This document shows, one piece after another, positions 173 through 56,843 of a DNA stretch of 62,390 nt. Every line of letters starts with the position of its first letter. Within the stretch, counting starts at the first letter, position 1. This DNA is from a virus: the IMG/VR virus record IMGVR_UViG_3300030688_000026, positions 1 through 62,390 of that record. One strand, written 5' to 3'. The notes below the pieces were generated by a model. The model did no database searches and was not told the origin of the DNA. It was given only the letters and a program-made list of their open reading frames with translations. A program made the translations under genes and the position numbers.

Positions 173-1483
173 TTAAATATTTTTTTCTTTATTATCACTT
201 TTTTCTTTTAAAATGCTGAAAAATCTGTCAAAATCATCGGGATTTTTAACTAAATAATCATAATTTTCTTGAGGTATTTCTTCTATCCTTCCAAATTTAT
301 TCCTGAATGCGCATCTCATTTGTATATTATCTTGTCCTCTTCTAACTTTGGCTAAATTTATTGTTCCAACTTTCTTACAATCTTTGTTTCTACCTAAAGT
401 AATCATATAGTCTAAGATATTAAGTTTTTTAGAGGATTCCGCAGCTGCTATTTTAGGTATAATTTCTTCACCATAAAAACTAGTTTTTACTTGAGATCCT
501 ATTAGACAAATAGAATCAGTTTCATCGTTAAACTTTTTAATCTGGTTATAAATCCTACCGCCAGAATTATACATATTCCCATCATCAGCTATGTGAAAAT
601 TTTGATCATAATCTATTATCATACAATCAAAATTAAAATCTTTCTTTAAAATTTTAGCTTCAGATATAACTTGTTCAATACTTAATGAATCCGTAGGTGA
701 AAAAATTACATATAAATTTTTTAATTTTTCTTTTAAAAGTTTACCATACATTAAGAAATCTTTTAAGACTACAGTCATTTCTAAATTCAACCAATTAGAC
801 ATATATTTTAAAATAACGTCTAATCTAGATAAATCACCTAAAGATAAGTGATATACTTTTTTACCTTGGTTTATAAAATGAGCACCTTCTGAAGCTAGAA
901 AAGAGCTTTTACCTATACCAGTTTCACCTGCTACCATAACTAAATCTCTAGGTTTATAACCTTTGTACAAACTATAATCATTTATTAGTGAAAAGGCTGA
1001 TTTGACTATGGAAGTTCCATTGAAATTGTCTTCATTTAAAACTTTAAGAAGTACATCCTCATTGGAAAAATCCAAAGTTTCTTCTGTCCTGATAGTAAAA
1101 GAAGTTGCTTCTATTAAATAAGAATAATCTTTAGCTTCGTTAGATACTACTAAATCAATAGCATCTGATATTTTTTTATTTTTAATAAAATCTTCTATTT
1201 GTTTAATTGCTAAGTGTATATCATTAACTTTTTCACTCTTGTAACTAGAAAAAATTTCTTCAACTACTCTTCTATCTTGATCGTTACTAAGTAAATTTTT
1301 AGATTCTAGAAAATTAAAAAGTAGTATTTTGTTTACTTCTTTATCATTGAAGCTTTCATGAAGAATAAAGTTTAAAACAAATTTAAACAATCTACTGCTG
1401 ACCATTTTTTGATTTACATAAGGTTTTACTATAACTCTTATATGAGGGTTTAATAGTAAAATTAAAAGATTCTTTTCTAACAA
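173..1483 (-). CDS. Replicative DNA helicase, DnaB / T4 gp41-like
   Basis: A 436-residue RecA-fold helicase. Walker A is GETGIGKSS near residue 190, followed by a DnaB-style region (KKVYHLSLGDLSRLDVI). Walker B-like DCMIIDYDQ comes around residue 290. Downstream, SICLIGSQVKTS and the arginine-rich LAKVRRGQDNIQMR correspond to the H3/H4 and arginine-finger regions of DnaB/gp41 helicases. The N-terminal 150 residues are helical, as in the primase-interaction domain. Family role: hexameric 5'-3' unwinding at the phage fork. The start is a TTG with AAGG eight bases upstream. A promoter-like sequence lies about 45 bases further upstream. No primase is visible in the window. Confidence 0.85.
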   Translation of the reverse strand: MLEKNLLILLLNPHIRVIVKPYVNQKMVSSRLFKFVLNFILHESFNDKEVNKILLFNFLESKNLLSNDQDRRVVEEIFSSYKSEKVNDIHLAIKQIEDFIKNKKISDAIDLVVSNEAKDYSYLIEATSFTIRTEETLDFSNEDVLLKVLNEDNFNGTSIVKSAFSLINDYSLYKGYKPRDLVMVAGETGIGKSSFLASEGAHFINQGKKVYHLSLGDLSRLDVILKYMSNWLNLEMTVVLKDFLMYGKLLKEKLKNLYVIFSPTDSLSIEQVISEAKILKKDFNFDCMIIDYDQNFHIADDGNMYNSGGRIYNQIKKFNDETDSICLIGSQVKTSFYGEEIIPKIAAAESSKKLNILDYMITLGRNKDCKKVGTINLAKVRRGQDNIQMRCAFRNKFGRIEEIPQENYDYLVKNPDDFDRFFSILKEKSDNKEKNI

Positions 1484-1527
1484 AATTAATACCTTAATAA
1501 ATTTATATCTAACTAATAATTAACTTT

Positions 1528-1550
1528 CGATATTATACATTAAATTAAAA
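1528..1550 (-). promoter_or_regulatory. Promoter-like element upstream of the helicase gene
   Basis: On the minus strand a TTTTAATTTAAT block is followed directly by GTATAATATCG, about 45 bases upstream of the helicase TTG. The same TTTTAA + GTATAATATC layout recurs before the dNMP kinase gene, before the large RNA and before the RecD2-like gene. The repetition, not the match to sigma70, is the main support. Confidence 0.55.
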
Positions 1551-1651
1551 CTTTAGAAGTATATTTTATTTTTATTTGATTTCATTTGAATAGATTTGAT
1601 TAGTTGAAAAGCAATATTCCTGCAAAACATTGCTTTAGTTTGAAAGTATAT

Positions 1652-1793
1652 TTATTTTAATCCAGAAATAATGTGAAGGTTTCTAAGTATTTTATTAAGA
1701 TCAATACTATCTTTTTCATTCCAGTCTAAAGACTCTCCAGAATTTTCCATATTAATCAATTCAGAAAGAGTTCCACTCTTTCCACTAGGTAAA
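1652..1793 (-). pseudogene. 3' fragment of a small gene split by the IS200/IS605 insertion
   Basis: Immediately outside the right end of the transposon the minus strand stays open and ends ...NLHIISGLK-stop at 1652. The matching 5' fragment lies on the far side of the element at 3438-3475. Removing 1794-3437 rejoins both parts in one frame to give a 59-residue acidic protein (MENISKKIFNRE, then TLPSGKSGTLSELINMENSG and on to the stop). I do not recognise the family. Its position just upstream of the helicase gene suggests a small replication or transcription accessory protein, but that is only context. Confidence 0.7.
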
Positions 1794-1833
1794 TTGACGT
1801 CCTCCCTCGTGCCTAAAGGCAGGGGATTCCTTG
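1794..1833 (-). ncRNA. IS right end and probable 3' part of the TnpB omega-RNA
   Basis: The short stretch between the tnpB stop and the element boundary contains a hairpin with stem TGCC/GGCA and loop TTTA, flanked by CCCC and GAGGG. In this family the guide RNA overlaps the tnpB 3' end and this right-end hairpin, and its guide is copied from the DNA just outside the element. Here that would be the minus-strand sequence beginning TTTACCTAGTGG. The 5' limit of the RNA cannot be read from sequence. Confidence 0.45.
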
Positions 1834-2892
1834 CTATGCAGCATTACACTGTTTATTCGCAAGACTATTACGCCCAATAGCGAGAATGTTGCGACTAGCG
1901 TTCACGTCTCTATCGTGGTTAGTGCCACAATCGTTGCATTGCCATTCTCTTATACCTAAACCTGAAAGACCTTTAGGAGAATTATCGCTAATTACCCCGC
2001 AGGCATGACAGACACGTGTTGTATTCGCCTCGTTTACAACTAAACATTCACCACCGTGCTCAATAGCTTTATATCTCAGTAGTGTTTTTATCATTCCCCA
2101 AGATGCGTCATGTGTTGATTTTGCCATCTTGGTTCTGGCTAATTTTTTACTACCAATATCACCTACAACAATTAGCTTGTTGTTGTTTGCAATTTCAGTA
2201 GTCATTTTGTGCAGGTAGTCTTTACGCTGATTACTAATCTTTTTACTGATTTTCTTAGCTTGTTTTTTCTTACCCGCTCTTTGTGCTTTACCTAATTTAG
2301 TTTCAAGCTGACGATAGTATCTAGGGTTATCGTATTTAGTACCATTGCTCAATGTAGCAATTTCTTTACTACCTAAGTCAATGCCAACCTCACCATCGCC
2401 ACAATACAATTCAGCTTCATAGTCAGTTGTTACATTGATATACCAGTTACCTAATACATCACATGAGAAACTACCGGATTTTATATTACCCATTATCTGC
2501 CGACTATTCCAAAACTTGAAAGTAATACCATTGAATTTGATTACCTCACCAATTTTTATACAATCACCACGAAACGGTATCCAGCCTAAATTCCTCTTGT
2601 AGCTACGGAAACGACATATACGCTTATGTTGTATAGATGATTCAACCATCCGCGCACCTATCATCTGAATAGTGGCAGAGTTCAACCCTAATTCTTTACT
2701 ACTTCCAGCGGTCAACTTTTGGAAATCATATGCAGATAGAAATTTACGAGAACGACTACGCCCCCACTTTTGTTGTTCAACGCAGAAGTTCCATACAAAG
2801 TTTACAGCCGAAGCGATTTTGTCTAACTTCTTTTTAGTGGTACTATCTTTGATTCTGAATTGAAACGTTTTCACTTTGCAAACTCCATCCAT
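1834..2892 (-). CDS. tnpB: TnpB, RNA-guided RuvC-type nuclease of the IS200/IS605 element
   Basis: 352 residues. The N-terminal half begins with the OrfB-type KTFQFRIKDS strand. RuvC-I is VGIDLGSKEIATLSNG. The second RuvC segment reads VVGDIGSKKLARTKMAKS, the variant used by one TnpB branch in place of the more common EDL motif. A zinc ribbon follows (CHACG ... CNDCGTNHDRD) with the last RuvC aspartate in NHDRDVNASRN. Known role of the family: an endonuclease guided by an omega-RNA made from the element's right end, cutting next to a transposon-associated motif and so favouring retention of the element. It looks full-length. Confidence 0.9.
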   Translation of the reverse strand: MDGVCKVKTFQFRIKDSTTKKKLDKIASAVNFVWNFCVEQQKWGRSRSRKFLSAYDFQKLTAGSSKELGLNSATIQMIGARMVESSIQHKRICRFRSYKRNLGWIPFRGDCIKIGEVIKFNGITFKFWNSRQIMGNIKSGSFSCDVLGNWYINVTTDYEAELYCGDGEVGIDLGSKEIATLSNGTKYDNPRYYRQLETKLGKAQRAGKKKQAKKISKKISNQRKDYLHKMTTEIANNNKLIVVGDIGSKKLARTKMAKSTHDASWGMIKTLLRYKAIEHGGECLVVNEANTTRVCHACGVISDNSPKGLSGLGIREWQCNDCGTNHDRDVNASRNILAIGRNSLANKQCNAA

Positions 2893-3317
2893 TTTTGTTG
2901 CTGTTCCGCTCTTTGGCTTGTTTGTTGATTCTCAACATACGCTTTCATTGTAGCTATTGGCGCACCGCCGTTGGTTGCAACAAAATAGCTATTCGTCCAC
3001 AATGCAGGTAATTTAGTTCTTAGTTCTGGAAATTCATTTCTCAATATAAATGAGCTTTTACCTTTGAGTAATTTCACTAATTTATTGATTCCATATTGCG
3101 GGTCAATACTGCAAAGCAAATGCACATGGTCTTTGTCAGTTTCTAACGCAATTATTTCAAAAGAAGTTATTTCACTAACAAATGAGTAGATTATTTCTTT
3201 TAGTTTTTGCTCAATTTTACCTACCAATAATTGACGCCTATATTTGACACACCATATTACATGGTATTTGCTTATGTAGACTATTTTGTTATTGGTTTTG
3301 TACTCTTTTTTATTCAT
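2871..3317 (-). CDS. tnpA: TnpA, IS200-type Y1 HUH transposase
   Basis: 148 residues, the usual size for IS200/IS605 TnpA. It starts YHVIWCVKYRRQLL and carries the metal-binding HUH motif in DKDHVHLLCS, followed by the region around LPALWTNSYFVATNGG. The catalytic tyrosine lies in the C-terminal helix MKAYVENQQ. Family role: excises and inserts the top strand of the element as a single-stranded circle, acting at the subterminal hairpins. It overlaps the tnpB start by 22 bases, so translation is probably coupled. All catalytic residues are present, so the element may be active. Confidence 0.93.
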   Translation of the reverse strand: MNKKEYKTNNKIVYISKYHVIWCVKYRRQLLVGKIEQKLKEIIYSFVSEITSFEIIALETDKDHVHLLCSIDPQYGINKLVKLLKGKSSFILRNEFPELRTKLPALWTNSYFVATNGGAPIATMKAYVENQQTSQRAEQQQKWMEFAK

Positions 3318-3491: not shown

Positions 3492-3565
3492 TGGCAGGTC
3501 GGGAAGGGATCGAACCTTCACTACAAGAATCAAAATCTTATGTGCTACCATTACACCACCAACCA
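3492..3565 (-). tRNA. tRNA-Gln (UUG)
   Basis: Cloverleaf read on the minus strand: anticodon stem TAAGA/TCTTG around loop TTTTGAT, anticodon TTG; T-arm GAAGG-TTCGATC-CCTTC; CCA encoded at the 3' end. Position 1-72 is unpaired (T-T), in keeping with the weak first pair of glutamine tRNAs. Confidence 0.93.
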
Positions 3566-3578
3566 ATTGTACTGAAAA

Positions 3579-3866
3579 TTAATCTTCAATAATTGCTACA
3601 ATTCCTTGTTCTGCAATTATTAGGTATTTCTTATCTTCAAAAGTAACAGGAGTTCCCGCTCCATTATAAATAACTATATCTCCTACTTTAACAGTAGGTT
3701 TTATTAATTCTCCATTTTCTAAAATTCTACCTTTACCCACTCCTACAACTTTTGCTGTAGGTTCTGGTTTTTCAGAGGATTCTAGTAGGAGAATACTAGA
3801 AGGATTTTTTTCTTCTAATTTTATTTTTTCTAAAATTACTTTGTCACCAATTACTTTTAATTTCAT
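3579..3866 (-). CDS. groES: GroES-like co-chaperonin
   Basis: 95 residues, the normal GroES length. It opens KLKVIGDKVILEKIKLEEK (the conserved first strand), has a mobile-loop region with hydrophobic ILLLESS and a proline-rich turn, then the conserved AKVVGVGKGRILENG, VKVGDIVIYNGAGTPV and the terminal YLIIAEQGIVAIIED. Known role: it caps GroEL. Phage versions (functional analogues of T4 gp31) let host GroEL fold the phage capsid protein, so this suggests a capsid needing an adapted chaperonin cage. It sits inside the tRNA cluster, between tRNA-Gln and an unknown gene. Confidence 0.92.
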   Translation of the reverse strand: MKLKVIGDKVILEKIKLEEKNPSSILLLESSEKPEPTAKVVGVGKGRILENGELIKPTVKVGDIVIYNGAGTPVTFEDKKYLIIAEQGIVAIIED

Positions 3867-3951
3867 AAAAATCTTTCAAAAAATAAATAAATAAAATTAA
3901 AAATATTTAAGTTAAAATTAAATCAACCAACTTAAATACTTTTTACGAAAA

Positions 3952-4203
3952 CTAACAGGGTGTACTAGAATCTACTGCTACCTCAGGAGCAGTTTGATTG
4001 TTTGTAGGCACTTCAGCAGTTACTGAATCTACTGAATTAACAGTAGTATTGGTTACTAAAGATTTTCCTTGTAATAAGGCATGTAAGTTATCTATTAAAA
4101 TTAAATCATTTTCCGTAATGGAAATTTCCAAAGAAAGTAAATAATTATGGATATCTAACCATTTACCTTTTGCACTTGTAAAATCGGTATTCAAATTAAT
4201 CAT
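3952..4203 (-). CDS. Unknown small acidic protein
   Basis: About 83 residues from the ATG at 4201-4203, chosen because AAAGAG sits six bases upstream. An in-frame ATG at 4218 lacks a ribosome site and is too close to the tRNA-Tyr 3' end. The N-terminal half is helical (KWLDIHNYLLSLEISITEND); the C-terminal half is a Thr/Val/Asn-rich, probably disordered tail ending STPC. No family recognised. It lies between tRNA-Tyr and groES on the same strand. Confidence 0.6.
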   Translation of the reverse strand: MINLNTDFTSAKGKWLDIHNYLLSLEISITENDLILIDNLHALLQGKSLVTNTTVNSVDSVTAEVPTNNQTAPEVAVDSSTPC

Positions 4204-4227
4204 AAACATCTCTTTCATAAAAATTTT

Positions 4228-4312
4228 TGGTGGGGAATCTAGGTAACGCTCCTAGCGGGTCACTGACAAGGGATTTACAGTCCCTCCCTACTCTTTAAAG
4301 GACTACTTCCCC
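4228..4312 (-). tRNA. tRNA-Tyr (GUA), class II with long variable arm
   Basis: Acceptor GGGGAAG pairs with the 3' strand ending before ACCA. The anticodon stem GGGA/TCCC holds loop CTGTAAA, anticodon GTA. The long variable arm is typical of bacterial tyrosine tRNAs. CCA is encoded. Confidence 0.93.
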
Positions 4313-4319
4313 ATTGTAC

Positions 4320-4796
4320 TTAACAAATCAAAACACTTAAATTTAAAGTAGATCCTGTTATTCCTGTAACATTTGCCCTAATGAAAACATTAGTTATATT
4401 AGGTAAGGTCATTAAACCATTATCTGTAAAAGTCATAGGATTCCCTAAATTGTCATTTAACATGAAAAAATTTGAAACTCCATCAGCGCTACACTCTATA
4501 GTAGCTGTAGCACCACCAAAATCATCAGCAGTAACCATAATGTTACTAGGTATCAACTTAGAAGGACTTGCAGGCTGAATAAAGTAAGCATCAGTTACAA
4601 TTGAAGTATCTTCTGCGTGATTAGAATCAGGTTGCAATAACATTAAGTTATTTTCAGTCCAGAAATGATCTAAAGTAGGGTACAAGCTTGTAGAAGTATT
4701 ATAAGGTAAAGCCTGAGGCTGACCTTGAGGATTCCAATTAGCTGGAGGCAATCTAGTAAAAACACTAGGATTAGATGCTGTAGTAGCTGTGGTCAT
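4320..4796 (-). CDS. Putative virion protein, unknown
   Basis: 158 residues with strong AAGGAAAT spaced before the ATG. The N-terminus is Thr/Ala/Pro-rich (TTATTASNPSVFTRLPPANW); the rest is beta-rich (DDFGGATATIECSADG, then VFIRANVTGITGSTLNLSV), a pattern like small capsid-decoration or head-fibre proteins. No catalytic motif, signal peptide or membrane segment is visible. It lies between tRNA-Ser and tRNA-Tyr, so the tRNAs and this gene are probably cut from one transcript. The structural assignment is inference from composition. Confidence 0.55.
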   Translation of the reverse strand: MTTATTASNPSVFTRLPPANWNPQGQPQALPYNTSTSLYPTLDHFWTENNLMLLQPDSNHAEDTSIVTDAYFIQPASPSKLIPSNIMVTADDFGGATATIECSADGVSNFFMLNDNLGNPMTFTDNGLMTLPNITNVFIRANVTGITGSTLNLSVLIC

Positions 4797-4831
4797 TAAT
4801 TATTTCCTTATTTATATAAAATTTCAGTATT

Positions 4832-4921
4832 TGGCGGAAGCTGTGAGATTCGAACTCACGGAGGGCTCGCACCCTCGACAGTTTTCAAGACTGTTGCATT
4901 CAACCGCTCTGCCAAGCTTCC
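4832..4921 (-). tRNA. tRNA-Ser (UGA), class II
   Basis: Acceptor GGAAGCT/AGCTTCC, anticodon stem ACAGT/ACTGT around loop CTTGAAA giving TGA, a GC-rich long variable arm (GAGGGTGCGAGCCCTC) and encoded CCA. Confidence 0.95.
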
Positions 4922-4940
4922 AGTAAATTAAAATAGTATC

Positions 4941-5016
4941 TGGCAGAAACTAATGGAATCGAACCACTAACCTTATGCTTTGGAGGCATCTGCTCTTCCT
5001 ATTGAGCTAAGTTTCT
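4941..5016 (-). tRNA. tRNA-Trp (CCA)
   Basis: Acceptor AGAAACT/AGTTTCT, anticodon stem ATGC/GCAT with loop CTCCAAA, anticodon CCA; T-arm TAGTGG/CCATTA (G-T pairs allowed); GCCA at the 3' end. The loop matches bacterial tRNA-Trp. Confidence 0.92.
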
Positions 5017-5025
5017 ATAGCGGGG

Positions 5026-5101
5026 TGGTGGAAGATAGTGGAATCGAACCACTGACCTACTGCTTGCAAAACAGTCGCTCTACCAACTGAGCTAATCCCC
5101 C
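5026..5101 (-). tRNA. tRNA-Ala (UGC)
   Basis: Acceptor GGGGGAT pairs with ATCTTCC using G-U pairs. The anticodon arm ACTGT/GCAGT encloses TTTGCAA, anticodon TGC. D- and T-arms are standard and ACCA is encoded. Only two bases separate it from tRNA-Thr. Confidence 0.92.
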
Positions 5102-5103
5102 AT

Positions 5104-5179
5104 TGGTGCCATCAGAATGAATCGAACACTCGACCTTCTCATTACAAGTGAGCTGCTCTACCTACTGAGCTATGATGGC
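5104..5179 (-). tRNA. tRNA-Thr (UGU)
   Basis: Acceptor GCCATCA/TGATGGC, anticodon stem GCTCA/TGAGA (one mismatch) around CTTGTAA, anticodon TGT; encoded CCA. Confidence 0.93.
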
Positions 5180-5210
5180 GTATAAATTTTTCCCAAGTAC
5201 AGGATTAAAA

Positions 5211-5317
5211 AATTCTATCATATTTTGAAAATTTTTTTACTTATTAAATAAGCTTAAAATTTTAATTTATTTGTTATATATTTTGAGATCTAAAGTTTTT
5301 CAAAATATGATAAAATT
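5211..5317 (-). repeat. 21-bp inverted repeat with 65-base spacer between tRNA-Asn and tRNA-Thr
   Basis: Positions 5297-5317 and 5211-5231 are reverse complements apart from one position, which is a G-U pair in a minus-strand RNA. This would fold a long AU-rich helix in the leader of the tRNA-Thr/Ala/Trp/Ser group. The 230-base gap that contains it has no credible open frame. Confidence 0.5.
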
Positions 5318-5410
5318 CTTAGTAAGATATAATTTTTACTTTATACTATTTAATCTTAAACATTTTCTTTTTATTAGGTATAAAAAGTCTTTGCTGTAAA
5401 AATTAAATAT

Positions 5411-5487
5411 TGGCGTTTCAGGTAGGAATTGAACCTACGACCTACGGATTAACAGTCCGTCGCTCTAACCATCTGAGCTACTGAAAC
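5411..5487 (-). tRNA. tRNA-Asn (GUU)
   Basis: Acceptor GTTTCAG/CTGAAAC, anticodon stem ACGGA/TCCGT around CTGTTAA, anticodon GTT; T-arm GTAGG/CCTAC; GCCA encoded. Confidence 0.95.
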
Positions 5488-6171: not shown

Positions 6172-6618
6172 TTATTTGCTATTCTTCAATTTTTTCTTTT
6201 CCTTAGCTATTTTCTTAGCTTCATCCAAAGGTATCCACTGTAAAGAGTGATTAGATGGAGCTTTAGTAATAACTTGTAAATCCAAATCTGGGTATTTATT
6301 TTGAAAAAGTTTGTATTTAATTTTAAATTCTGGAGCTACTAAAAATCCTTTTACATCTATAACTATTTTTGAACCTTTTATCTGGAAATCTCCTATATAC
6401 TCTATTTTTCTAATTAAAGTTCCATTTTTCTTGAAACCTTCTTGCAAAAGAAATTTTGGTTGTAATATTATTTCTTCTGGTTTATAAATATTAAGTAAAA
6501 ACTCATAATATGCTGCTTCCATTTTAGAGGAAAATTCCACTCCATTTACAGTAGATTTAATATTATGATACTTATTGTATCTAGGCTTTACTTTTTTCTC
6601 TTTCTTAATTTTTTCCAT
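6172..6618 (-). CDS. DUF1064 family PD-(D/E)XK nuclease-like protein
   Basis: 148 residues. The family signature runs through the protein: KYHNIKSTVNGVEFSSKMEA near the start, IILQPKFLLQEGFKKNG, then YIGDFQIKGSKIVIDVKGF with the DF/DVKGF acidic and lysine residues of a restriction-enzyme-like core, and a C-terminal lysine-rich tail. DUF1064 proteins are phage nucleases proposed to act in recombination or Holliday-junction resolution. The exact reaction here is not shown by sequence. It sits upstream of the dNMP kinase gene, with that gene's promoter-like element between them. Confidence 0.8.
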   Translation of the reverse strand: MEKIKKEKKVKPRYNKYHNIKSTVNGVEFSSKMEAAYYEFLLNIYKPEEIILQPKFLLQEGFKKNGTLIRKIEYIGDFQIKGSKIVIDVKGFLVAPEFKIKYKLFQNKYPDLDLQVITKAPSNHSLQWIPLDEAKKIAKEKKKLKNSK

Positions 6619-6690
6619 GACAAGCTTTCAAAAATTCTTTAGTCTAAATAAAAGTCTTTAAAAATAAAATAAAAATATTAGTAATAAATT

Positions 6691-6707
6691 TTTAATTGAT
6701 GTATAAT
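6691..6707 (+). promoter_or_regulatory. Promoter-like element for the large RNA
   Basis: TTTAATTGAT followed by GTATAATATC (TATAAT at 6702-6707) on the plus strand. It is nearly the same as the element preceding the helicase gene. It predicts transcription starting near 6714, just before the first strong helices of the RNA. Confidence 0.6.
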
Positions 6708-6713
6708 ATCTAC

Positions 6714-7490
6714 CTTAAAATCTTACAATTTTAAGATAAATTTAAGAATACCGTTAATTCAAAATTTGAATTTAGAAAATAACAGTATGTTTAGGAACTT
6801 ATATTAGGTACAGAGCCTGTATATAACTAATCAGAAAATCCTGTTATCCTAGGTCTCAAGGGGAATCTTTTGTAGCAATTGTCTCGACCCTTGTAGTAGA
6901 ACTATGAGCTTTTTGTAAAAGGAAGTCACTACAAAATCGGTAATATTTTGTAGGTTTAGACCAGTTTGTATTGTTTATATCAGGTAAAGGCATTTTATAA
7001 ATGTGGCTGAAAAATACAAACTCTCAGTATGCAAGAGAAGCAAGGCATACGAAGTAGAAATCAATCCATACCAGTTACCTAAACTTACTAGGTTGTGCAA
7101 TCTTAAGCATGGTAACTCGTCCATCAAATCAGTATCTGTAAAGAGAAGCTTTTTAGATGGATTTTATTGTCAGCGGAGTTTCTTGTCAAATGTAAAAATG
7201 ACAGGATTACCTATTGAGAGTTCAATAGGCTACGCCTAAAAGGTATGGGATCCCACAAACTAAGCAAAGGCGGTATATCTAAATGCCAATTGAAGAAGTG
7301 GGTGTGAATCTGGGGATGGAAGTCTTAAATAACGAAAGTTTTTAAGAAGCCAGAGGATACGAAGTGAAGCTTACCAAATAAATATTTGAAAAAGTGTTTA
7401 TCTGGTAATCTTCCTTTAACTGACAGTAGATTTCACCAAAAGGAGTTTTTAATTATTAATCTCCTTAAGGCGAAATCTTACTCAGTTTCG
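6714..7490 (+). ncRNA. Large structured non-coding RNA (about 780 nt), GOLLD/ROOL-like in setting, family not established
   Basis: About one kilobase lacks a credible gene but is denser in G+C than its flanks and full of exact helices. Nested ones: ATAACAG 6779-6785 with CTGTTAT 6841-6847, enclosing ATTAG 6803-6807/CTAAT 6827-6831 and TACAG-AGC-CTGTA 6809-6821; GGTCT 6852-6856/AGACC 6958-6962, enclosing CAAGGG 6857-6862/CCCTTG 6888-6893 and CTACAAAA 6929-6936/TTTTGTAG 6946-6953; AGTTTGTATT 6963-6972/AATACAAACT 7013-7022. Others: GTATGC/GCATAC 7027-7050, CCTATTGA-GAGT-TCAATAGG 7210-7229, a GAAA-capped hairpin 7324-7346, a long hairpin 7366-7413, and a 3' closing helix (ACTGA, GTA, GATTTC 7419-7434 with GAAATC, TAC, TCAGT 7472-7486) around AAGGAG/CTCCTT. 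Size, a promoter of its own and a nearby phage tRNA cluster recall GOLLD and ROOL RNAs. I cannot confirm either family by reading. Confidence 0.8.
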
Positions 7491-7497
7491 CTACCAA

Positions 7498-7545
7498 TAT
7501 AATAATCTTATAACTTAATAATAACTTAATAATAATCTTATAAAT
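7498..7545 (+). repeat. AT-only direct repeats between the large RNA and recD2
   Basis: AATAATCTTATAA occurs twice and CTTAATAATAA twice in a 48-base stretch just upstream of the recD2 promoter-like element. It could be a protein-binding or easily melted site; no function is shown. Confidence 0.45.
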
Positions 7546-7567
7546 CTTGTAAAATATAACTTAAGAC

Positions 7568-7590
7568 ATTAAAATTTGAGTATAATATCT
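7568..7590 (+). promoter_or_regulatory. Promoter-like element upstream of recD2
   Basis: Plus strand: TTAAAATTTGAGTATAATATC with TATAAT at 7581-7586, about 20 bases before the TTG start. It matches the other three TTTTAA + GTATAATATC elements of the early region. Confidence 0.55.
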
Positions 7591-7607
7591 TCTTTAAGGA
7601 GTTATAA

Positions 7608-10061
7608 TTGAATTTAAGTCAATATCTTGATATTAGAATGGGTAATTTAAATGTTAAAGCTCTGACAGATAAAGAATTTAAAATATTTGGACTTACACCT
7701 AATAAGTTTGGTTGGTACAAAGATAATAAGAATCTTGAGATAACAGAAGATATGCTATCTCAAATAAAGATATTGTCTGTAAAATCTAAAAATAAATTTT
7801 TTAAGAATGTACAGACAATATTCACCGCTGAAGGTAATCTTAAAAATTTTTCAGTTAATAAGCAAAATGCTAAAAATAAAAAACAAAATTCAAAAAATTT
7901 GAAAGGAATGGAAATGGAAGTTGAAAATAAAGAAAATTATATTGTAAAAGTAGAAAAAATAATATTTAATAGTCCTTCTAACGGATACACTATTTTTGCT
8001 ACTAAAATAAAAAAAGAGAAAATAAGTGTAGTAGGTACTTGGTTAAATCCTACTGTAAATGAAGAAGTAAAAATTTCAGGTAAATTTGGAATGTCTAAAT
8101 ATGGTAAACAGTTCGAAGCTTCTCATATAGAATTAGTGGTAAAAGAAACGGTAGAAGGATTAGTGAAATATTTATCTACTGTTCCTAAAATAGGACCAGC
8201 ATCTGCTAAATTATTAATCAAAAATTTTAAAGAAAAAACTTTAGATGTTTTAGATAACCATCAGGATAAAGTAATTGAGGTTTTAGGAGAGGTAAAAGCT
8301 AAATCTTTATTAGAAGCTTGGAATGATTCTAGAGAATATAATAGAATAATAATTTTTTTACAAGATTCTGGTTTAGGCATAAGCAGAGCTTTAAAAATTT
8401 ATGAAAAGTATAAAAGCAATACTATTGAAATAGTTAAGAAAAATCCTTATAGGATATATTTAGATGTTGATGGTATAGGATTTAAAACTGCAGATGGCAT
8501 TGCATTAAAAAATGGAATGAAAGTAGATTCAGAAGAAAGAACACAGGCAGGTATAAAATTTATAATAGAAGAATACTCTTCTGCGGGACACTGTTCAATA
8601 ACTCTACCTGAAATGGTTAAGAAAGCTTTAAAATTAAGCTTGATTGAAGAAGTTCTCTTAAGCGTATTAGATAAAGAAATAAAGTCCAGAAATATCATAA
8701 AAGATAAAGTTAATGAAATAGATTACTATTACACTAGAAACCTTTATTACTCAGAGGTTAATATAGCAAAAAAATTGAAACTTCTTCAATCCTCTGCTTT
8801 CGAAAAGATACCAAAATCTGATGAAGAGATACTTAAAATGGCTGAATCTGAAAGCAATCTAGAACTTACAGAAAACCAAAAAGAAGCTATTTTAACAGCT
8901 TTGAAAAATAAAGTAACTGTTATTACAGGAGGACCTGGTACAGGTAAAAGTAGTATTTTACATTGTATTATTTCAGTTTTAAAAATTTCTAAGAAAAATT
9001 ATTATTTATGCGCACCTACAGGAAGAGCAGCAAAAAGAATAACTGAAACTACAGGAGAAAGTGCCTCAACTATTCACCGCTTGATAGGAATCGGGGGAAA
9101 TTCAATCTTACCTAAATATAATGAAGATAACCCTTTAGAAAATCCAGATTATGTTATTCTAGATGAAGCCTCAATGGTTGACTTGTACTTAATGAGCCAG
9201 TTATTAAATGCTGTAACTCCTGACACTAATTTCATAATGGTAGGAGATATAGATCAACTTCCTTCAGTAGGTTGTGGTTACGTTTTAGGAGATATAATTA
9301 ATTCTGAAGTTTTTCCTGTAGTAAGATTAACAGAGATTCATAGACAAGCTAAAAATTCCAACATAATTTTAAATGCTCATTCAATAAACAAAGGAAAAAG
9401 CATATTAAGTGAAGGAGATTTTACAGGAAATGATTTTCAATTTATAGAAATGGAAGAACCTGAAGACATATTCAACACTGCTGTAAAGCTAATGTCTGAA
9501 ACTATACCTAAAATTTGTGAAATAGAAAATCCAATAGCAGATATTCAACTTCTTGTACCTATGCATAAAACTTTAGTAGGTGTAGAATCTTTTAATAAAT
9601 CACTTCAGGAAAATTTAAATTCAAAAAATAAAAAATTTATTACTTCTGGTAGCGGTGTATTTAAAGTTGGAGATAAAGTTATACAGAATGTAAATAATTA
9701 TAGAAAAAATGTCTTTAATGGGGACATAGGGTACATAATTAACATAATTTCTGATGAGATTACTATAAATTATGATGGATACAATGTAAAGTATTCAAAA
9801 ACTGAAATGCATGAAGTATCTTTGGCTTATGCTATTACAGTCCATAAATCTCAAGGAGCTGCTTTTGATGTAGTTATTATACCTTTGGTAACTTCACATT
9901 ATATGCTTTTAGAAAGAAATATGTTATATACCGCTGTTACACGTGCAAGAAAACTTTGTGTTATAATTGGACAGAAAAGAGCTGTAGACATGGCTGTACG
10001 TAATTCAACATCTAAGAAAAGAATAACTTTATTAGATAATAGATTAAAGAACCTACTTTAA
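7608..10061 (+). CDS. RecD2-like 5'-3' DNA helicase (SF1B)
   Basis: 817 residues. The TTG start was chosen because TTTAAGGAG lies seven bases upstream. Residues 1-110 form an extra lysine- and asparagine-rich N-terminus not seen in typical RecD2. Then come the RecD2 OB-like segment, a helix-hairpin-helix part (VPKIGPASAKLLIKNF) and the motor: Walker A TGGPGTGKSS near residue 440, motif Ib CAPTGRAAKRITETTG, Walker B DEASMVDLYLM, motif III GDIDQLPSVGCGYVLGD, motif V AYAITVHKSQGAAFD and motif VI LLYTAVTRARKL. Known role of the family: ATP-driven 5'-3' unwinding in recombination and repair; T4 uses the related Dda. First gene of a plus-strand replication cluster, with its own promoter-like element. 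Confidence 0.9.
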   Translation: MNLSQYLDIRMGNLNVKALTDKEFKIFGLTPNKFGWYKDNKNLEITEDMLSQIKILSVKSKNKFFKNVQTIFTAEGNLKNFSVNKQNAKNKKQNSKNLKGMEMEVENKENYIVKVEKIIFNSPSNGYTIFATKIKKEKISVVGTWLNPTVNEEVKISGKFGMSKYGKQFEASHIELVVKETVEGLVKYLSTVPKIGPASAKLLIKNFKEKTLDVLDNHQDKVIEVLGEVKAKSLLEAWNDSREYNRIIIFLQDSGLGISRALKIYEKYKSNTIEIVKKNPYRIYLDVDGIGFKTADGIALKNGMKVDSEERTQAGIKFIIEEYSSAGHCSITLPEMVKKALKLSLIEEVLLSVLDKEIKSRNIIKDKVNEIDYYYTRNLYYSEVNIAKKLKLLQSSAFEKIPKSDEEILKMAESESNLELTENQKEAILTALKNKVTVITGGPGTGKSSILHCIISVLKISKKNYYLCAPTGRAAKRITETTGESASTIHRLIGIGGNSILPKYNEDNPLENPDYVILDEASMVDLYLMSQLLNAVTPDTNFIMVGDIDQLPSVGCGYVLGDIINSEVFPVVRLTEIHRQAKNSNIILNAHSINKGKSILSEGDFTGNDFQFIEMEEPEDIFNTAVKLMSETIPKICEIENPIADIQLLVPMHKTLVGVESFNKSLQENLNSKNKKFITSGSGVFKVGDKVIQNVNNYRKNVFNGDIGYIINIISDEITINYDGYNVKYSKTEMHEVSLAYAITVHKSQGAAFDVVIIPLVTSHYMLLERNMLYTAVTRARKLCVIIGQKRAVDMAVRNSTSKKRITLLDNRLKNLL

Positions 10062-17324: not shown

Positions 17325-18506
17325 TTATGCAGAAGCATAAACAAGTTGGTTAACATAGATGGTAATTCCAGATAAATCTGAATTAGTCAGTTGAACACCT
17401 ATATCTGTTGCATTATAAAATGTGAGTCTGTTAGTTCCACCTATTATTTTTACTATATAATTAACTCCAGCAGCAGAGCTAGGTATTAAGAAAGACATCG
17501 CCTTATATGTATTAGGTACTCCTGATAGTGTAACTGAAGCAGCATTTGAATCAGAAGTTGTAGGGTAGGTAAAACTTACATTTGCAAAAACTATGCTTCC
17601 AATAGTGTTATACACAGAATTTTGAAAAGAGAAAGTTAAACCTGCAGCAGAAGCATCGGCTACATTGAATGAATTACTTACACTAGGTAATGTAATTCCA
17701 TCAATTTGGTCTTGAATATTAGAACTAGCACCTGACAAATATTGAAATTCAGTATTACCTACAGAACCATCAGCAATTTTACTTGCATCAATTCCTGTAG
17801 GTAATACTGAATTTAAAAGTAATCCTGTCGAATCAAGACCAGCAACTCCATTAACAACATTAAAATAATAACTCACTAAAGCTATTTGGTATGTATTTTG
17901 ATTTCCTTGATTTACTGAAGTAGTAAAAAATAAAGCACAACCCCCAGCGGGTATTGCAATTTGTGTAGCACTTGAATTTGCGTATGGAGTAGAACCAGTA
18001 ATACTACCTGAACCAGTTTTAGATAAAATTACTGCACTACCAGAAGTATTATTTACTATATATAAATTACCAGCTGCATCAGTAATTGGGGGTATTTGTG
18101 CTGCTAATAGTGCTGTAATAGTTTGTGAAGATGCTGTATTTATAATATGTTGTGTAGCAGTAGCTTCTATATCTAAATTAATAGTTTGAGTTCCAACGTT
18201 ATAACTTTGACTTACCTGATTAATAGTTCCATTTGTTGAAGTTAAGTTGATGGAAGTAGCTCCACTACCAGAACCTCCAGAACTTATAGCAGTCCAAGCT
18301 TCGTCAGAATTTGGAGTAACTCCTAAAGTTGGTTGTAAGTAAGAATTAGTTTCCTCATCGAATGTATAATTACAAACATAAGTTATGTTATTAAAGATTA
18401 CAGTAGGACAAAGAACTTCTGTACCGTTTTCACTTGTTCTCACTGCATATTGGAATTCAGAATCCCAAGTTCCTAAGAAGTTCTGTACTAAATTTGTTGT
18501 TGACAT
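17325..18506 (-). CDS. Receptor-binding/fibre protein, shared C-terminal module (type A N-terminus)
   Basis: 393 residues, the shortest of the five paralogues. Residues 1-95 (LVQNFLGTWDSEFQYAVRTS, then CPTVIFNNITYVCNY and PNSDEAWTAISSGG) are nearly the same as in 21505-23022, and resemble a carbohydrate-binding module of the CBM5/12 kind (W, then Y, then NNITYVC). The C-terminus (FNVADASAAGLTFSFQNSVY ... LSGITIYVNQLVYASA) is the shared tip module. 95- and 62-bp DNA blocks are identical to the other copy. Confidence 0.75.
   Translation of the reverse strand: MSTTNLVQNFLGTWDSEFQYAVRTSENGTEVLCPTVIFNNITYVCNYTFDEETNSYLQPTLGVTPNSDEAWTAISSGGSGSGATSINLTSTNGTINQVSQSYNVGTQTINLDIEATATQHIINTASSQTITALLAAQIPPITDAAGNLYIVNNTSGSAVILSKTGSGSITGSTPYANSSATQIAIPAGGCALFFTTSVNQGNQNTYQIALVSYYFNVVNGVAGLDSTGLLLNSVLPTGIDASKIADGSVGNTEFQYLSGASSNIQDQIDGITLPSVSNSFNVADASAAGLTFSFQNSVYNTIGSIVFANVSFTYPTTSDSNAASVTLSGVPNTYKAMSFLIPSSAAGVNYIVKIIGGTNRLTFYNATDIGVQLTNSDLSGITIYVNQLVYASA
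18256..18350 (-). repeat. 95-bp exact direct repeat, copy 1 (other copy 22772-22866)
   Basis: Identical over 95 bases to 22772-22866 in the same orientation, inside the type A fibre N-terminus. The flanking codons have diverged, so identity is maintained in blocks, as expected from gene conversion or recent duplication. Confidence 0.9.
18445..18506 (-). repeat. 62-bp exact direct repeat, copy 1 (other copy 22961-23022)
   Basis: The first 62 bases of the two type A fibre genes, counted from the ATG, are identical. They end together with the start codon, so the shared DNA covers the attachment N-terminus. Confidence 0.9.
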
Positions 18507-41343: not shown

Positions 41344-42399
41344 TTAAACTACTTCCCAAAAAACAAAATAAATATTTTTCGATGGATCTTCTTTTCTGGA
41401 AGAATCATGTAAATATATTTTATTTTCAAAGTCATATTTTTTATAAGGTTTTTTATTCTTTATACTAAAATTTAATCCGGCTCCAGAAGAAAGATTTAAC
41501 TTAATTTTAGCATCTTTATAACTTATAAAATTTTCAATAACTAGTTTTTGATATCCTTTAATTATGAAAGATTGAATGGGTTTCCTATTCAAATATCCTG
41601 CTTTTTCAACATCATATTTTTTTAAAATAGTTTCTTTTATTTTATCTTGTATTTTTTTACTATTAAATGGAAATTCACTACCTGTAGAAGCTATACAAGA
41701 TTTCTTTCTTTTATCTTGAACTTTTAAGTTTAACATAGGATTTTCAAAACCAAATTTTTCTAAACAAGTTTTTTTAACTTTATGTTTTACAAAATCACTA
41801 CTTAAAGGATTTTTTACTTGATATTTATTTAAATTGGTTTGTTCAATTTTATCTTTTATAGTTTGTGATTGTAAAACATTAATAACTCCGAATTTTTCTA
41901 AACAAGTTTTCTGAGTCTTTATTCTTATTTCTTTACACTTTTGAGCACTAGTATTCCCATATCTACTTTTCATGGTTTTTCTAATTTTTTCCTTTACTTC
42001 CTTTTTTCTACTTGGGTTATTGTCTCCAAATAAAATAGGCAAAGTATTAGTATATAGGCTCTTATTATATGTTAAACTATTTTCTAATAAATTTCTTCTT
42101 AAAAAATATTGTTCCCACGAGTAAGGATTATCACAAACCATCAAGATTTGTTTTTTAAAAATTTCTTTACCATTTTCTTGTATATCTAATTTTAATTCTT
42201 TACAACTTCCAAAGTATTTATGATCTTTTGCTTCTTGGACTGTTTTAGCTTTTCTGCTTGAACCAATATACCATTTCCCAGTCGTCAAATTAGTTGTCAG
42301 ATACACATAACCTGAAATATTATCTTTTTTCAGAATTTTAAATAACATAAAATCTTTATGTCGTAGACAAAGTTTATCTAGCTCTTCTTTTAAATTAAT
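41344..42399 (-). CDS. Free-standing GIY-YIG homing endonuclease
   Basis: 334 residues from the first ATG (42348), or 351 from an ATT at 42399 that has GAGGA six bases upstream; the extra 17 residues (NLKEELDKLCLRHKDF) read as protein. GIY-YIG motif: GYVYLTTNLTTGKWYIGSS. The middle contains three to four repeats of the KTCLEKFGVxNxxxSxxxKDK kind, typical DNA-binding spacers of phage Seg-like enzymes. It sits between sheath and tube genes, flanked by terminators, and no intron core is visible there, so it is a free-standing intruder. Confidence 0.85.
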   Translation of the reverse strand: MNLKEELDKLCLRHKDFMLFKILKKDNISGYVYLTTNLTTGKWYIGSSRKAKTVQEAKDHKYFGSCKELKLDIQENGKEIFKKQILMVCDNPYSWEQYFLRRNLLENSLTYNKSLYTNTLPILFGDNNPSRKKEVKEKIRKTMKSRYGNTSAQKCKEIRIKTQKTCLEKFGVINVLQSQTIKDKIEQTNLNKYQVKNPLSSDFVKHKVKKTCLEKFGFENPMLNLKVQDKRKKSCIASTGSEFPFNSKKIQDKIKETILKKYDVEKAGYLNRKPIQSFIIKGYQKLVIENFISYKDAKIKLNLSSGAGLNFSIKNKKPYKKYDFENKIYLHDSSRKEDPSKNIYFVFWEVV

Positions 42400-48531: not shown

Positions 48532-49684
48532 CGTTAATTATTTTAATTTACAATTCTTTCCATGCTTAGAATTAAAAACTCTTTCATCTACCAGCTTAGA
48601 GCAGTTAATACACTCTATTTTATTTATAGACTTATTTGGATTCAAACTACAGTTATTTTCATGCCAACGGGAATAATTACCTTTTGTGTAACTTTTTTGA
48701 CAATATTCACAAAGATATTTTAATTCTCCTAATTCCCAACCTTCACTTAAGTACTGCTGTATTTCCTCTGGTTTAATTCTAGTTTGTAAAAGTTTTTCTT
48801 TATTATGAATATGTTTAGTATTCAGAGTTTTAGCTATCTTATTTCCTATCATTAATTTAGATTGTTCTGGTCTTTTTCTGCCAAAAGAAGGATTATTTTT
48901 TCCTAGTCTTCTTTTAGAAAAATTCTCTTTCTTCTCTAAACCCCAGTAATTCTCAAAATTAGGATTATTTTTTCCAGAATAGATCTCGGATCTTACTCTA
49001 GATAAATGAATCTTTAATTCAGAGTATTCTTCTTCATTTATAGGACAATATCGTTCCAAAGTAAATTTAGATTTATAATTTCTCAAACAATCAAAAGCAC
49101 ATAACATCTTATACTCATCTTTTTTACTAATACACATTTTAGTTAAAAGTCTATGAGCTATAAAGTGTTCTTTAGGTGTTAAAAATACTAAATTATCTTT
49201 TGTATTTTTACCTTTTAAAGAAACAGGTATAATGTGATGTTTTTCACAATAACCCAAAACTTCTTTAGCTTTTTCTTTAGAAAAAATATTTCTACTTCTA
49301 GCTTTTTCTATTAAAAGAAAGTAATCTTCTGTAAACTTATTTTTTAAAAAAATTTTATTCATAATAATTTCAAAATAATTTTTCTTCATTCTAATTCGTT
49401 ATGTTAGAATAGTTAACTTAATAACTTCTTATAGTTTCCTATAAGGCGAGACTATATCTTCACTCTTATTGTAGTAAATAAGAGGCATTCCATTTCGACT
49501 TCACTTAAAGTCTACGTCTTTCGACTAGTCGTTGAACGTTCAACCTATTTCTAGGAGGCTTCGCTGCTGATTGCCCAATCTAATTAATTTTCAAACATTC
49601 AAGCTTATCTTTACAGATTACTTTGTAGTTTAATTAGCTCTAAGGGTATTCCAGCAATTAAAAATGTTTTACATAGACATTGAA
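48532..49684 (-). ncRNA. Group I self-splicing intron in the neck-like gene
   Basis: Core elements are clear on the minus strand: P (AATTGCTGGAAT), Q (CAATCAGCAGCG), R (GTTCAACGACTA) and S (AAGATATAGTC), then a GAAA-capped P9 hairpin (CTTATAG/CTATAAG). The 5' splice site is fixed by P1: exon CATAGAT pairs with intron GTCTATG, with the diagnostic U-G at the cut. The 3' site follows a G. Its 136-base core (49526-49661) is identical to that of the portal intron. It carries an HNH endonuclease gene. Confidence 0.9.
48538..49389 (-). CDS. Intron-encoded HNH homing endonuclease
   Basis: 283 residues. HNH core: CEKHHIIPVSLKGKNTKDNL followed by VFLTPKEHFIAHRLLTKMC. A NUMOD3-like basic stretch (GKNNPNFENYWGLEKKENFS, RRLGKNNPSFGRKRPEQS) follows, then two zinc-ribbon-like CxxC segments (KYLCEYCQKSYTKGNYSRWH; IECINCSKLV). 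Its stop lies six bases before the intron end. Such enzymes cut intron-less alleles and spread the intron. Confidence 0.9.
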   Translation of the reverse strand: MKKNYFEIIMNKIFLKNKFTEDYFLLIEKARSRNIFSKEKAKEVLGYCEKHHIIPVSLKGKNTKDNLVFLTPKEHFIAHRLLTKMCISKKDEYKMLCAFDCLRNYKSKFTLERYCPINEEEYSELKIHLSRVRSEIYSGKNNPNFENYWGLEKKENFSKRRLGKNNPSFGRKRPEQSKLMIGNKIAKTLNTKHIHNKEKLLQTRIKPEEIQQYLSEGWELGELKYLCEYCQKSYTKGNYSRWHENNCSLNPNKSINKIECINCSKLVDERVFNSKHGKNCKLK

Positions 49685-54927: not shown

Positions 54928-55991
54928 CACTTATTTTAAATTTTTACATTTTTTCAAATGTCTAGAATAATTACCGCCTGTAAGATTTCTTCCACAATTT
55001 TGGCAAGGAATTGTTTTTTCACCTAATTCCCAACCTTCATCTAAAAATTTTTGTAATTCAAAAGATTTAACTTTCTTAGATTTACTAAAATTTTTATGAT
55101 TTATTGCTATTCTATCAATGCTTCCTTTAGAAAGTAAGTTTCTTGTATACTCACTAGGAATAACTCCTTTATTAGGTGAAATAGTTCCATACATTGGATT
55201 ATTTTCACCAGAAACTTTACCTTTATTCCAACCATGACCATGATCCTTCTTATATTTTTTAGAAGGATTATTTTCACCAGAGAAAATTTTACTAAATTTT
55301 TCCCTTATAAGTTTAGAATTTGAGTTTTCTTTAGATAAAGGATTATTACTTCCTAATATACTTTCTGAAGTGGCACCAATACCTTTATTTTTAATATTAT
55401 AGCTCATTGGATCATTAGCTGCATCCAATACTTCTAATATTAACTCTTCAAGTTCATAAGCATCTTCAGTTGTGCAAAGAATTTCTTTTTTAAAATTTTC
55501 TTTACCATACTTCTTTAAAGCTTGTTTAAAAATTTTACCAGATCCTAAATAGGGATCTAATTTTGCTTCTTTCATAGTTTTAAATTTTCTGCTACTTCCT
55601 AAATACCATTTATTATTTAGAATATTAGTAGTTTTGTAAAGATAACCAGATCTCATAAATTCCTAGAATTTAAAATAATTTTTGTTAAATTAAGTTCGTT
55701 AAGCTTAATAATTAATTTAATAATTTCTTATAGTTTCCTATAAGGTCAGACTATATCTTCATTTAACAATTATTAATTGTTAAAGTTACACATTTCCTTC
55801 TTACTTAAGAAGTACTCCTTTACAGGATAGTCGTTGAACGTTCAACCTATTTCTAGGAGGCTTCGCTGCTGATTGCCCAATCTAATTAATTTTCAAACAT
55901 TCAAGCTTATCTTTACAGATTACTTTGTAGTTTAATTAGCTCTAAGGGTATTCCAGCAATTAATGTAATTTAAATAGAACTAACGCAATTA
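54928..55991 (-). ncRNA. Group I self-splicing intron in the portal gene
   Basis: Same P, Q, R, S core as the other intron, 136 bases identical (55828-55963), and the same GAAA-capped P9. P1: exon GATAGGAT pairs over eight positions with GTTCTATT and ends in the U-G pair at the cut. P10: the 3' exon bases ACGCAA pair with TTGCGT just upstream of the guide strand, which fixes the 3' splice site after AAGTG. It encodes a GIY-YIG enzyme. Confidence 0.93.
54931..55656 (-). CDS. Intron-encoded GIY-YIG homing endonuclease
   Basis: 241 residues. GIY-YIG core: GYLYKTTNILNNKWYLGSSR, then KFKTMKEAKLDPYLGSGKIF, with Glu in the later helix ELEELILEVLDAANDP. NUMOD3-type repeats (GSNNPLSKENSNS, GENNPSKKYKKDHGHGWNKG) and a C-terminal zinc-ribbon-like part (IPCQNCGRNLTGGNYSRHLK) resemble those of the HNH enzyme in the other intron. 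Its stop codon nearly reaches the 3' splice site. Confidence 0.9.
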   Translation of the reverse strand: MRSGYLYKTTNILNNKWYLGSSRKFKTMKEAKLDPYLGSGKIFKQALKKYGKENFKKEILCTTEDAYELEELILEVLDAANDPMSYNIKNKGIGATSESILGSNNPLSKENSNSKLIREKFSKIFSGENNPSKKYKKDHGHGWNKGKVSGENNPMYGTISPNKGVIPSEYTRNLLSKGSIDRIAINHKNFSKSKKVKSFELQKFLDEGWELGEKTIPCQNCGRNLTGGNYSRHLKKCKNLK

Positions 55992-56368: not shown

Positions 56369-56843
56369 ATTTTTCCTTTTTCAAAAATAAATTTAAATTT
56401 TCTACTATAATAAAAATTTTCTGAAACTTTTTCAAATTTTTTAATTTTTATAGATTAATAGAACCCTTAATAATTCACTTAGTACTAAAATTAAAATTCT
56501 TTATGAAATTTCAAAATTCTTTTCTGTAAAAAAGTTTTCTGAAGTTAACCAAGTAGCAACCTATCTTAATTACTTGCTTAATAAGTCTACTTTAATGAGG
56601 AGTTGTTATAATAACTTTGAATTAAATAACATAATAAAAATTAACAACAAATATTAATAGTGATTTCTGTACTATTAAAAGCACACTTAATCTTCAAAAT
56701 CTATAATAATAGGTTATTTCTCAAAATTATCATAACAAATCCACATTAAAGGAGTTTTGAGAGGTTTAGTAAGAACTTTGATAAACTATTATAAGAATAT
56801 GTTTAAAACTCTCAAAACTCCTTTTTAGAAGAAACAATAGAGT
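56369..56843. other. 475-base non-coding stretch upstream of the portal gene
   Basis: No open frame over 20 codons with a ribosome site on either strand. It holds the long inverted repeat at 56748-56824, an AGACTTATTA motif (56580-56588 on the plus strand as AATAAGTCT), a GTTGTTATAATAAC imperfect palindrome near 56603, and a very AT-rich leader before the portal ATG where its promoter presumably lies. Confidence 0.5.
56748..56824 (-). terminator. 16-bp inverted repeat after the 145-residue gene
   Basis: AAAGGAGTTTTGAGAG (56748-56763) and CTCTCAAAACTCCTTT (56809-56824) pair perfectly around a 45-base loop, 20 bases beyond the stop of the 56844 gene. No T-run follows on the minus strand, so it may be a processing or stabilising structure, not a plain terminator. 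Confidence 0.5.

Follow-up and report, generated by a model that had tools for sequence, protein, structure and literature searches.

A probable large structured RNA, unmatched by catalogued families, between divergent genes of a contractile-tailed phage

What is encoded by the nearly 800 bases that lie between two divergent genes in the IMG/VR virus record IMGVR_UViG_3300030688_000026? The window analyzed here is the whole of this record, 62,390 bases, and it encodes a tail sheath, a portal, a head maturation protease, a DnaB-like helicase, RecD2, and a 5′-3′ exonuclease. On the strength of these structural and replication genes, we take the record to be part of the genome of an AT-rich phage with a contractile tail. 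Positions 6700-7500, hereafter the element, are flanked by the DUF1064/resolvase gene at 6172-6618, which runs leftward, and the RecD2 gene at 7608-10061, which runs rightward, and their G+C content is locally raised, as the initial annotation of the locus had noted (0.34-0.36 compared to 0.22-0.28 in the flanks). That annotation proposed an ornate structured RNA with its own promoter near a tRNA cluster, either a member of the GOLLD or ROOL families or a new class. To our knowledge, only a handful of large ornate RNAs of bacteria and phages have been described; GOLLD and ROOL form RNA-only cages of unknown purpose, GOLLD as a 14-mer with kissing loops and ROOL as a multimer joined by conserved contacts between its RNAs. 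Six tRNAs are indeed found in the vicinity, at 3492-5487, but they are 1.2-3.2 kb from the element, on the opposite strand and with two genes between. The evidence set out below indicates that the region is probably the gene of a large functional RNA that belongs to no catalogued family, within a non-coding stretch of ~450-790 bases.

The best candidate reading frames in the element had codon-signature z scores of 0.9, -0.2, 2.0, and 0.7, compared to 3.4-5.3 for real small genes of the phage, and a search for protein family matches to these frames returned none. A protein-coding reading was rejected on the absence of the phage codon signature (z of at most 2.0) and of any family, in agreement with the earlier claim that these ~800 bases hold no credible gene.

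The predicted fold of the element is more stable than that of its dinucleotide shuffles, with z scores of -4.9 for 6700-7490 and -5.6 for 6714-7499 and none of 120 shuffles as stable. We ran 120 shuffles because, after the built-in test had given a z of -6.6 with 20 shuffles, a 20-shuffle repeat gave only -3.5. Pairs with a probability above 0.9 numbered 102, compared to a mean of 53 and a maximum of 100 in the shuffles, and among the 214 400-nt windows of the contig, 7100-7499 ranked first on the - strand and third on the + strand. We took a fold stabler than shuffles, together with the lack of a coding signal, as the mark of a large structured non-coding RNA, and the element shows both. The excess stability is distributed unevenly: it was found for 7062-7250 (z -4.2) and 7163-7500 (z -5.7), each with 0 of 200 shuffles as stable, while for the 5′ half, 6714-7060, it was not significant (z -1.1). 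Since the excess is confined to 7062-7500, the ~800-base ornate RNA of the initial annotation folds beyond chance chiefly in its 3′ ~440 bases, and the 5′ part may form an arm with less structure or extend in part beyond the RNA. The + and - strands of the element are nearly equal in fold stability, and folding energy therefore cannot assign the strand. Two other parts of the window also fold unusually well: 17500-17899, inside an ORF of the structural gene region, on both strands (z -5.7 and -5.1), and 56369-56843 on the - strand, an AT-rich intergenic sequence with a 15-bp hairpin, AAAGGAGTTTTGAGAG/CTCTCAAAACTCCTTT (z -5.4).

The helices named by the initial annotation are present in the sequence, and their computed pair probabilities are given below with the parts of the element; the helix it described as a bulged 14-bp 3′ closing helix is found at 7428-7478 and counted here as 15 bp in three runs.

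6714-7060, + strand: 5′ half of the proposed RNA, with likely hairpins at 6929-6953, 6963-7022, and 7027-7050 (probability 0.95-0.99)
6779-6785/6841-6847: helix ATAACAG/CTGTTAT, mean pair probability 0.56
6963-6972/7013-7022, + strand: helix AGTTTGTATT/AATACAAACT, pair probability 0.95
7062-7250, + strand: domain closed by CCATACC/GGTATGG (7066-7072/7243-7249) that holds the receptor hairpin, MFE -56.1 kcal/mol
7073-7117, + strand: hairpin in which two stems flank an 11-nt internal loop like a GAAA receptor, CCUAAA (7078-7083)/CAUGG (7108-7112)
7163-7500, + strand: 3′ domain, multibranched, the strongest structure of the element, MFE -103.0
7210-7229: hairpin CCTATTGA-GAGT-TCAATAGG, pair probability 0.68
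7331-7340, + strand: hairpin AAC-GAAA-GTT with a GNRA tetraloop at 7334-7337, pair probability 0.92
7378-7401, + strand: 10-bp hairpin with a GAAA cap at 7388-7391, pair probability 0.98
7428-7478, + strand: bulged 3′ helix AGATTTC.CC..AAGGAG / CTCCTT..GG.GAAATCT, 15 bp in three runs, probability 0.95-1.0

For the 7062-7250 domain, an alternative pairing has bases in common with the 3′ domain. The classical 11-nt GAAA receptor is CCUAAG/UAUGG, and compared to it the internal loop of the element has an A-C in place of a G-U pair. The same receptor notation is used in a study that measured 98 receptor mutants, picked to preserve the wild-type binding mode and including changes of G-U to A-C or C-A (PMC11381326). 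With both strands scanned, the CCUAAA/CAUGG receptor-like hairpin occurs once in 62 kb; it arises in 17 of 20,000 shuffled versions of the element, a frequency that is a guide and not a p-value because the rule was written after the hairpin had been seen. Two GAAA-capped hairpins (7334 and 7388) are on the same + strand, and the presence of a unique receptor-like hairpin and two GAAA hairpins on one strand makes a docked tertiary fold plausible. We reasonably infer that one GAAA tetraloop may dock into the 7073-7117 receptor hairpin. A wider scan with the receptor pattern matched genes and a levivirus 5′ untranslated region, and nothing in genome contigs. The untranslated-region match is a CCUAAA/CAUGG receptor-like hairpin at 3776-3810 (-) of the stretch examined from IMGVR_UViG_3300019263_000338, a record that, judged from its ORFs alone, we take to resemble a single-stranded RNA levivirus.

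The folding statistics, the absent coding signal, the composition, and the tertiary-contact motif together lend good support to a large structured RNA. We regard it as very unlikely that the locus holds no RNA gene and is instead hairpin-rich DNA that serves as an origin of replication or in recombination, or else a degenerate genetic remnant. The near-equal stability of both strands would suit such a reading, as would a local turn in GC skew at the element, amid replication and recombination genes. However, the skew merely tracks the direction of the genes, reverting near 12 kb, and it was dropped as an origin signal; the candidate frames lack a protein family match, and the receptor hairpin and the GAAA loops, which are motifs of RNA, occur on a single strand only.

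One relative of the element was found. The contig IMGVR_UViG_3300029952_000059 matches the record over 14.4 kb at 100% identity and carries an identical element, which lowers the chance of a casual assembly error but adds no variation and may not be an independent assembly. In phages and plasmids, blastn with the element gave only ~28-44 nt matches with E values of 0.2-0.9. Peptide-pattern scans from an RNA frame returned the identical contig and one chance match in a bacterial gene, scans with 16- and 18-mers returned unrelated sequence elsewhere, nearly all of it coding, and single-sequence covariance models of two domains run on 50 phage records returned the identical contig only. The relatives of RecD2 besides the identical contig share 41% identity or less, so that the collections searched yielded no close relative, and the gap upstream of RecD2 is at most 282 nt in the 20 relatives checked. 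The element is thus known from one phage only, and these searches returned no diverged homologue from which covariation could be read, which limits confidence.

At gathering thresholds, Rfam identified only the six tRNAs in the whole window. With permissive filters and E values up to 10, a scan of 6600-7620 against 4227 Rfam families gave no credible match, and the models of GOLLD, ROOL, OLE, HEARO, group I intron, RNase P, and tmRNA were unmatched, in agreement with the earlier remark that no RNase P, tmRNA, or group I core is visible. Neither the GOLLD model (RF02032, conserved region of 416 positions) nor the ROOL model (RF03087, 574 positions) matched the element or the identical contig. 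As a positive control, the same GOLLD model recovered two diverged full-length GOLLD RNAs below its cut-off of 150 bits, and a comparably diverged GOLLD in the element should therefore have shown up. These RNAs are located at 1501-1908 of the stretch examined from IMGVR_UViG_3300021400_001148 (86.1 bits) and at 1501-1921 (-) of that from IMGVR_UViG_3300026549_001501 (68.3 bits), in each case beside tRNAs on a large phage contig. In the absence of a covariance-model match, we rejected membership in GOLLD or ROOL, which leaves the "new class" as the better supported of the two options that had been offered.

GOLLD, a large structured RNA, occurs in phages and prophages and is often found close to tRNAs (PMC12286853). 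The element resembles it in its phage location near, not adjacent to, tRNAs, in its ~800 nt, and in having a GAAA loop, but differs in that excess structure is found in ~440 nt and the tRNAs, encoded on the opposite strand, are separated from it by 1.2 kb and by genes. To ROOL, likewise a large phage RNA near tRNA islands, the element is similar in size range but not by model match. We consider it quite unlikely that the element is a very diverged GOLLD or ROOL, past the reach of the Rfam models and forming a multimeric RNA cage: although its size, the phage genome, and the tRNA neighborhood fit, and diverged GOLLD RNAs do occur beside tRNAs in two distant phages that share RecD2, no match was obtained at E up to 10 here or in the identical contig while those RNAs reach 68-86 bits. 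In addition, a search of this single sequence for kissing loops or long-range loop complementarity found none, with shuffles averaging 2.2. The LOOT RNA model (RF03000) matched 7076-7201 weakly over its full length (19.2 bits, E 0.51; cut-off 46.4 bits), a match that rests on the CCUAAAC/GCAUGG receptor-like loop. LOOT identity was rejected, as the score is far under the cut-off and LOOT's own GAAA hairpin is unmatched; the resemblance is most likely a shared 3D module.

Phage K transcribes two long non-coding RNAs, lnc001 and lnc002, at tRNA genes from phage promoters (PMC9241854). They directly adjoin the tRNA genes, unlike the element, and comparison with the element revealed no sequence or structure-model similarity. 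With 20 shuffles, lnc002 has a z of -6.8, similar to the element, and lnc001 a z of only -1.7, so a genuine phage long non-coding RNA need not have a strongly negative z. In size and neighborhood, the element is comparable to GOLLD, ROOL, and the phage K RNAs. At 633-769 (-) of the stretch examined from phage K (KF766114), the 3′ end of lnc001 matches the Rfam DUF3800-I RNA just under the cut-off (43.4 versus 44.2 bits, E 1.8e-4), and DUF3800-I RNA is a possible identity of lnc001.

Candidate transcription signals around the element include two promoter-like words.

6701-6718, + strand: promoter-like word GTATAATATCTACCTTAA, with a -10 like TATAAT at 6702-6707 and a predicted RNA start at ~6713-6715
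7580-7597, + strand: second promoter-like word GTATAATATCTTCTTTAA, a match to the joint pattern just before recD2 (7608)

Apart from these two sites, nothing matches the joint pattern GTATAATATCTWCYTTAA exactly, and the pattern was derived from the sites themselves. The pair suggests that the RNA and recD2 are each transcribed from a phage promoter of the same type. A sigma-70 promoter search reported no pair at 6701 and no clear -35; of the promoter claimed for the RNA, the -10-like word thus stands, without a -35. No intrinsic terminator-like site was found near 7500. We judge it unlikely that the element is instead a cis-acting leader, whether it forms the long, structured 5′ region of the recD2 mRNA or, with transcription of the - strand, that of the leftward resolvase mRNA. 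It is directly upstream of both divergent genes, its - strand folds about equally well, and a sigma-70-like match (TTGACA-17-TAAAAT, 11/12) at 7189-7161 (-), inside the element, points leftwards. However, that match is one of six in the contig, several of them within genes, and the receptor motif and GAAA loops are on the + strand only. Moreover, recD2 is preceded by a promoter-like word of its own, just 11 nt ahead of its start codon region, which argues against a leader.

We therefore favor, as likely, an independently transcribed, trans-acting, phage-encoded structured RNA with a docked 3′ core, in the manner of GOLLD, ROOL, and the phage K RNAs. Such a non-coding RNA would be transcribed rightwards from its own promoter, from ~6714 to ~7500, and its 3′ 440 nt would form the structured core with a compact fold, in which the GAAA tetraloop at 7334 or 7388 probably docks into the receptor hairpin. 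The folded RNA would then act in trans during infection, either by itself or together with a protein or the ribosome, and might oligomerize by analogy with GOLLD and ROOL (PMC12286853). A stronger version, in which the RNA represents a new large ornate class unrelated to GOLLD and ROOL, with a tetraloop-receptor fold, and forms or acts as an RNA-only particle in infection, is doubtful. Should this tRNA-bearing phage indeed carry another, unrelated class, large structured RNAs would look like a recurring phage strategy, and the ~440-nt core would be short and suited to structural work.

The window also contains an IS200/IS605 element at 1834-3317 (-), close to the tRNA genes, which includes TnpA (Y1) and a gene resembling TnpB; assignment of the phage host through its proteins was ambiguous. 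Among the structural genes, three match homing endonuclease families (41344-42348, 48538-49389, and 54931-55656 (-)).
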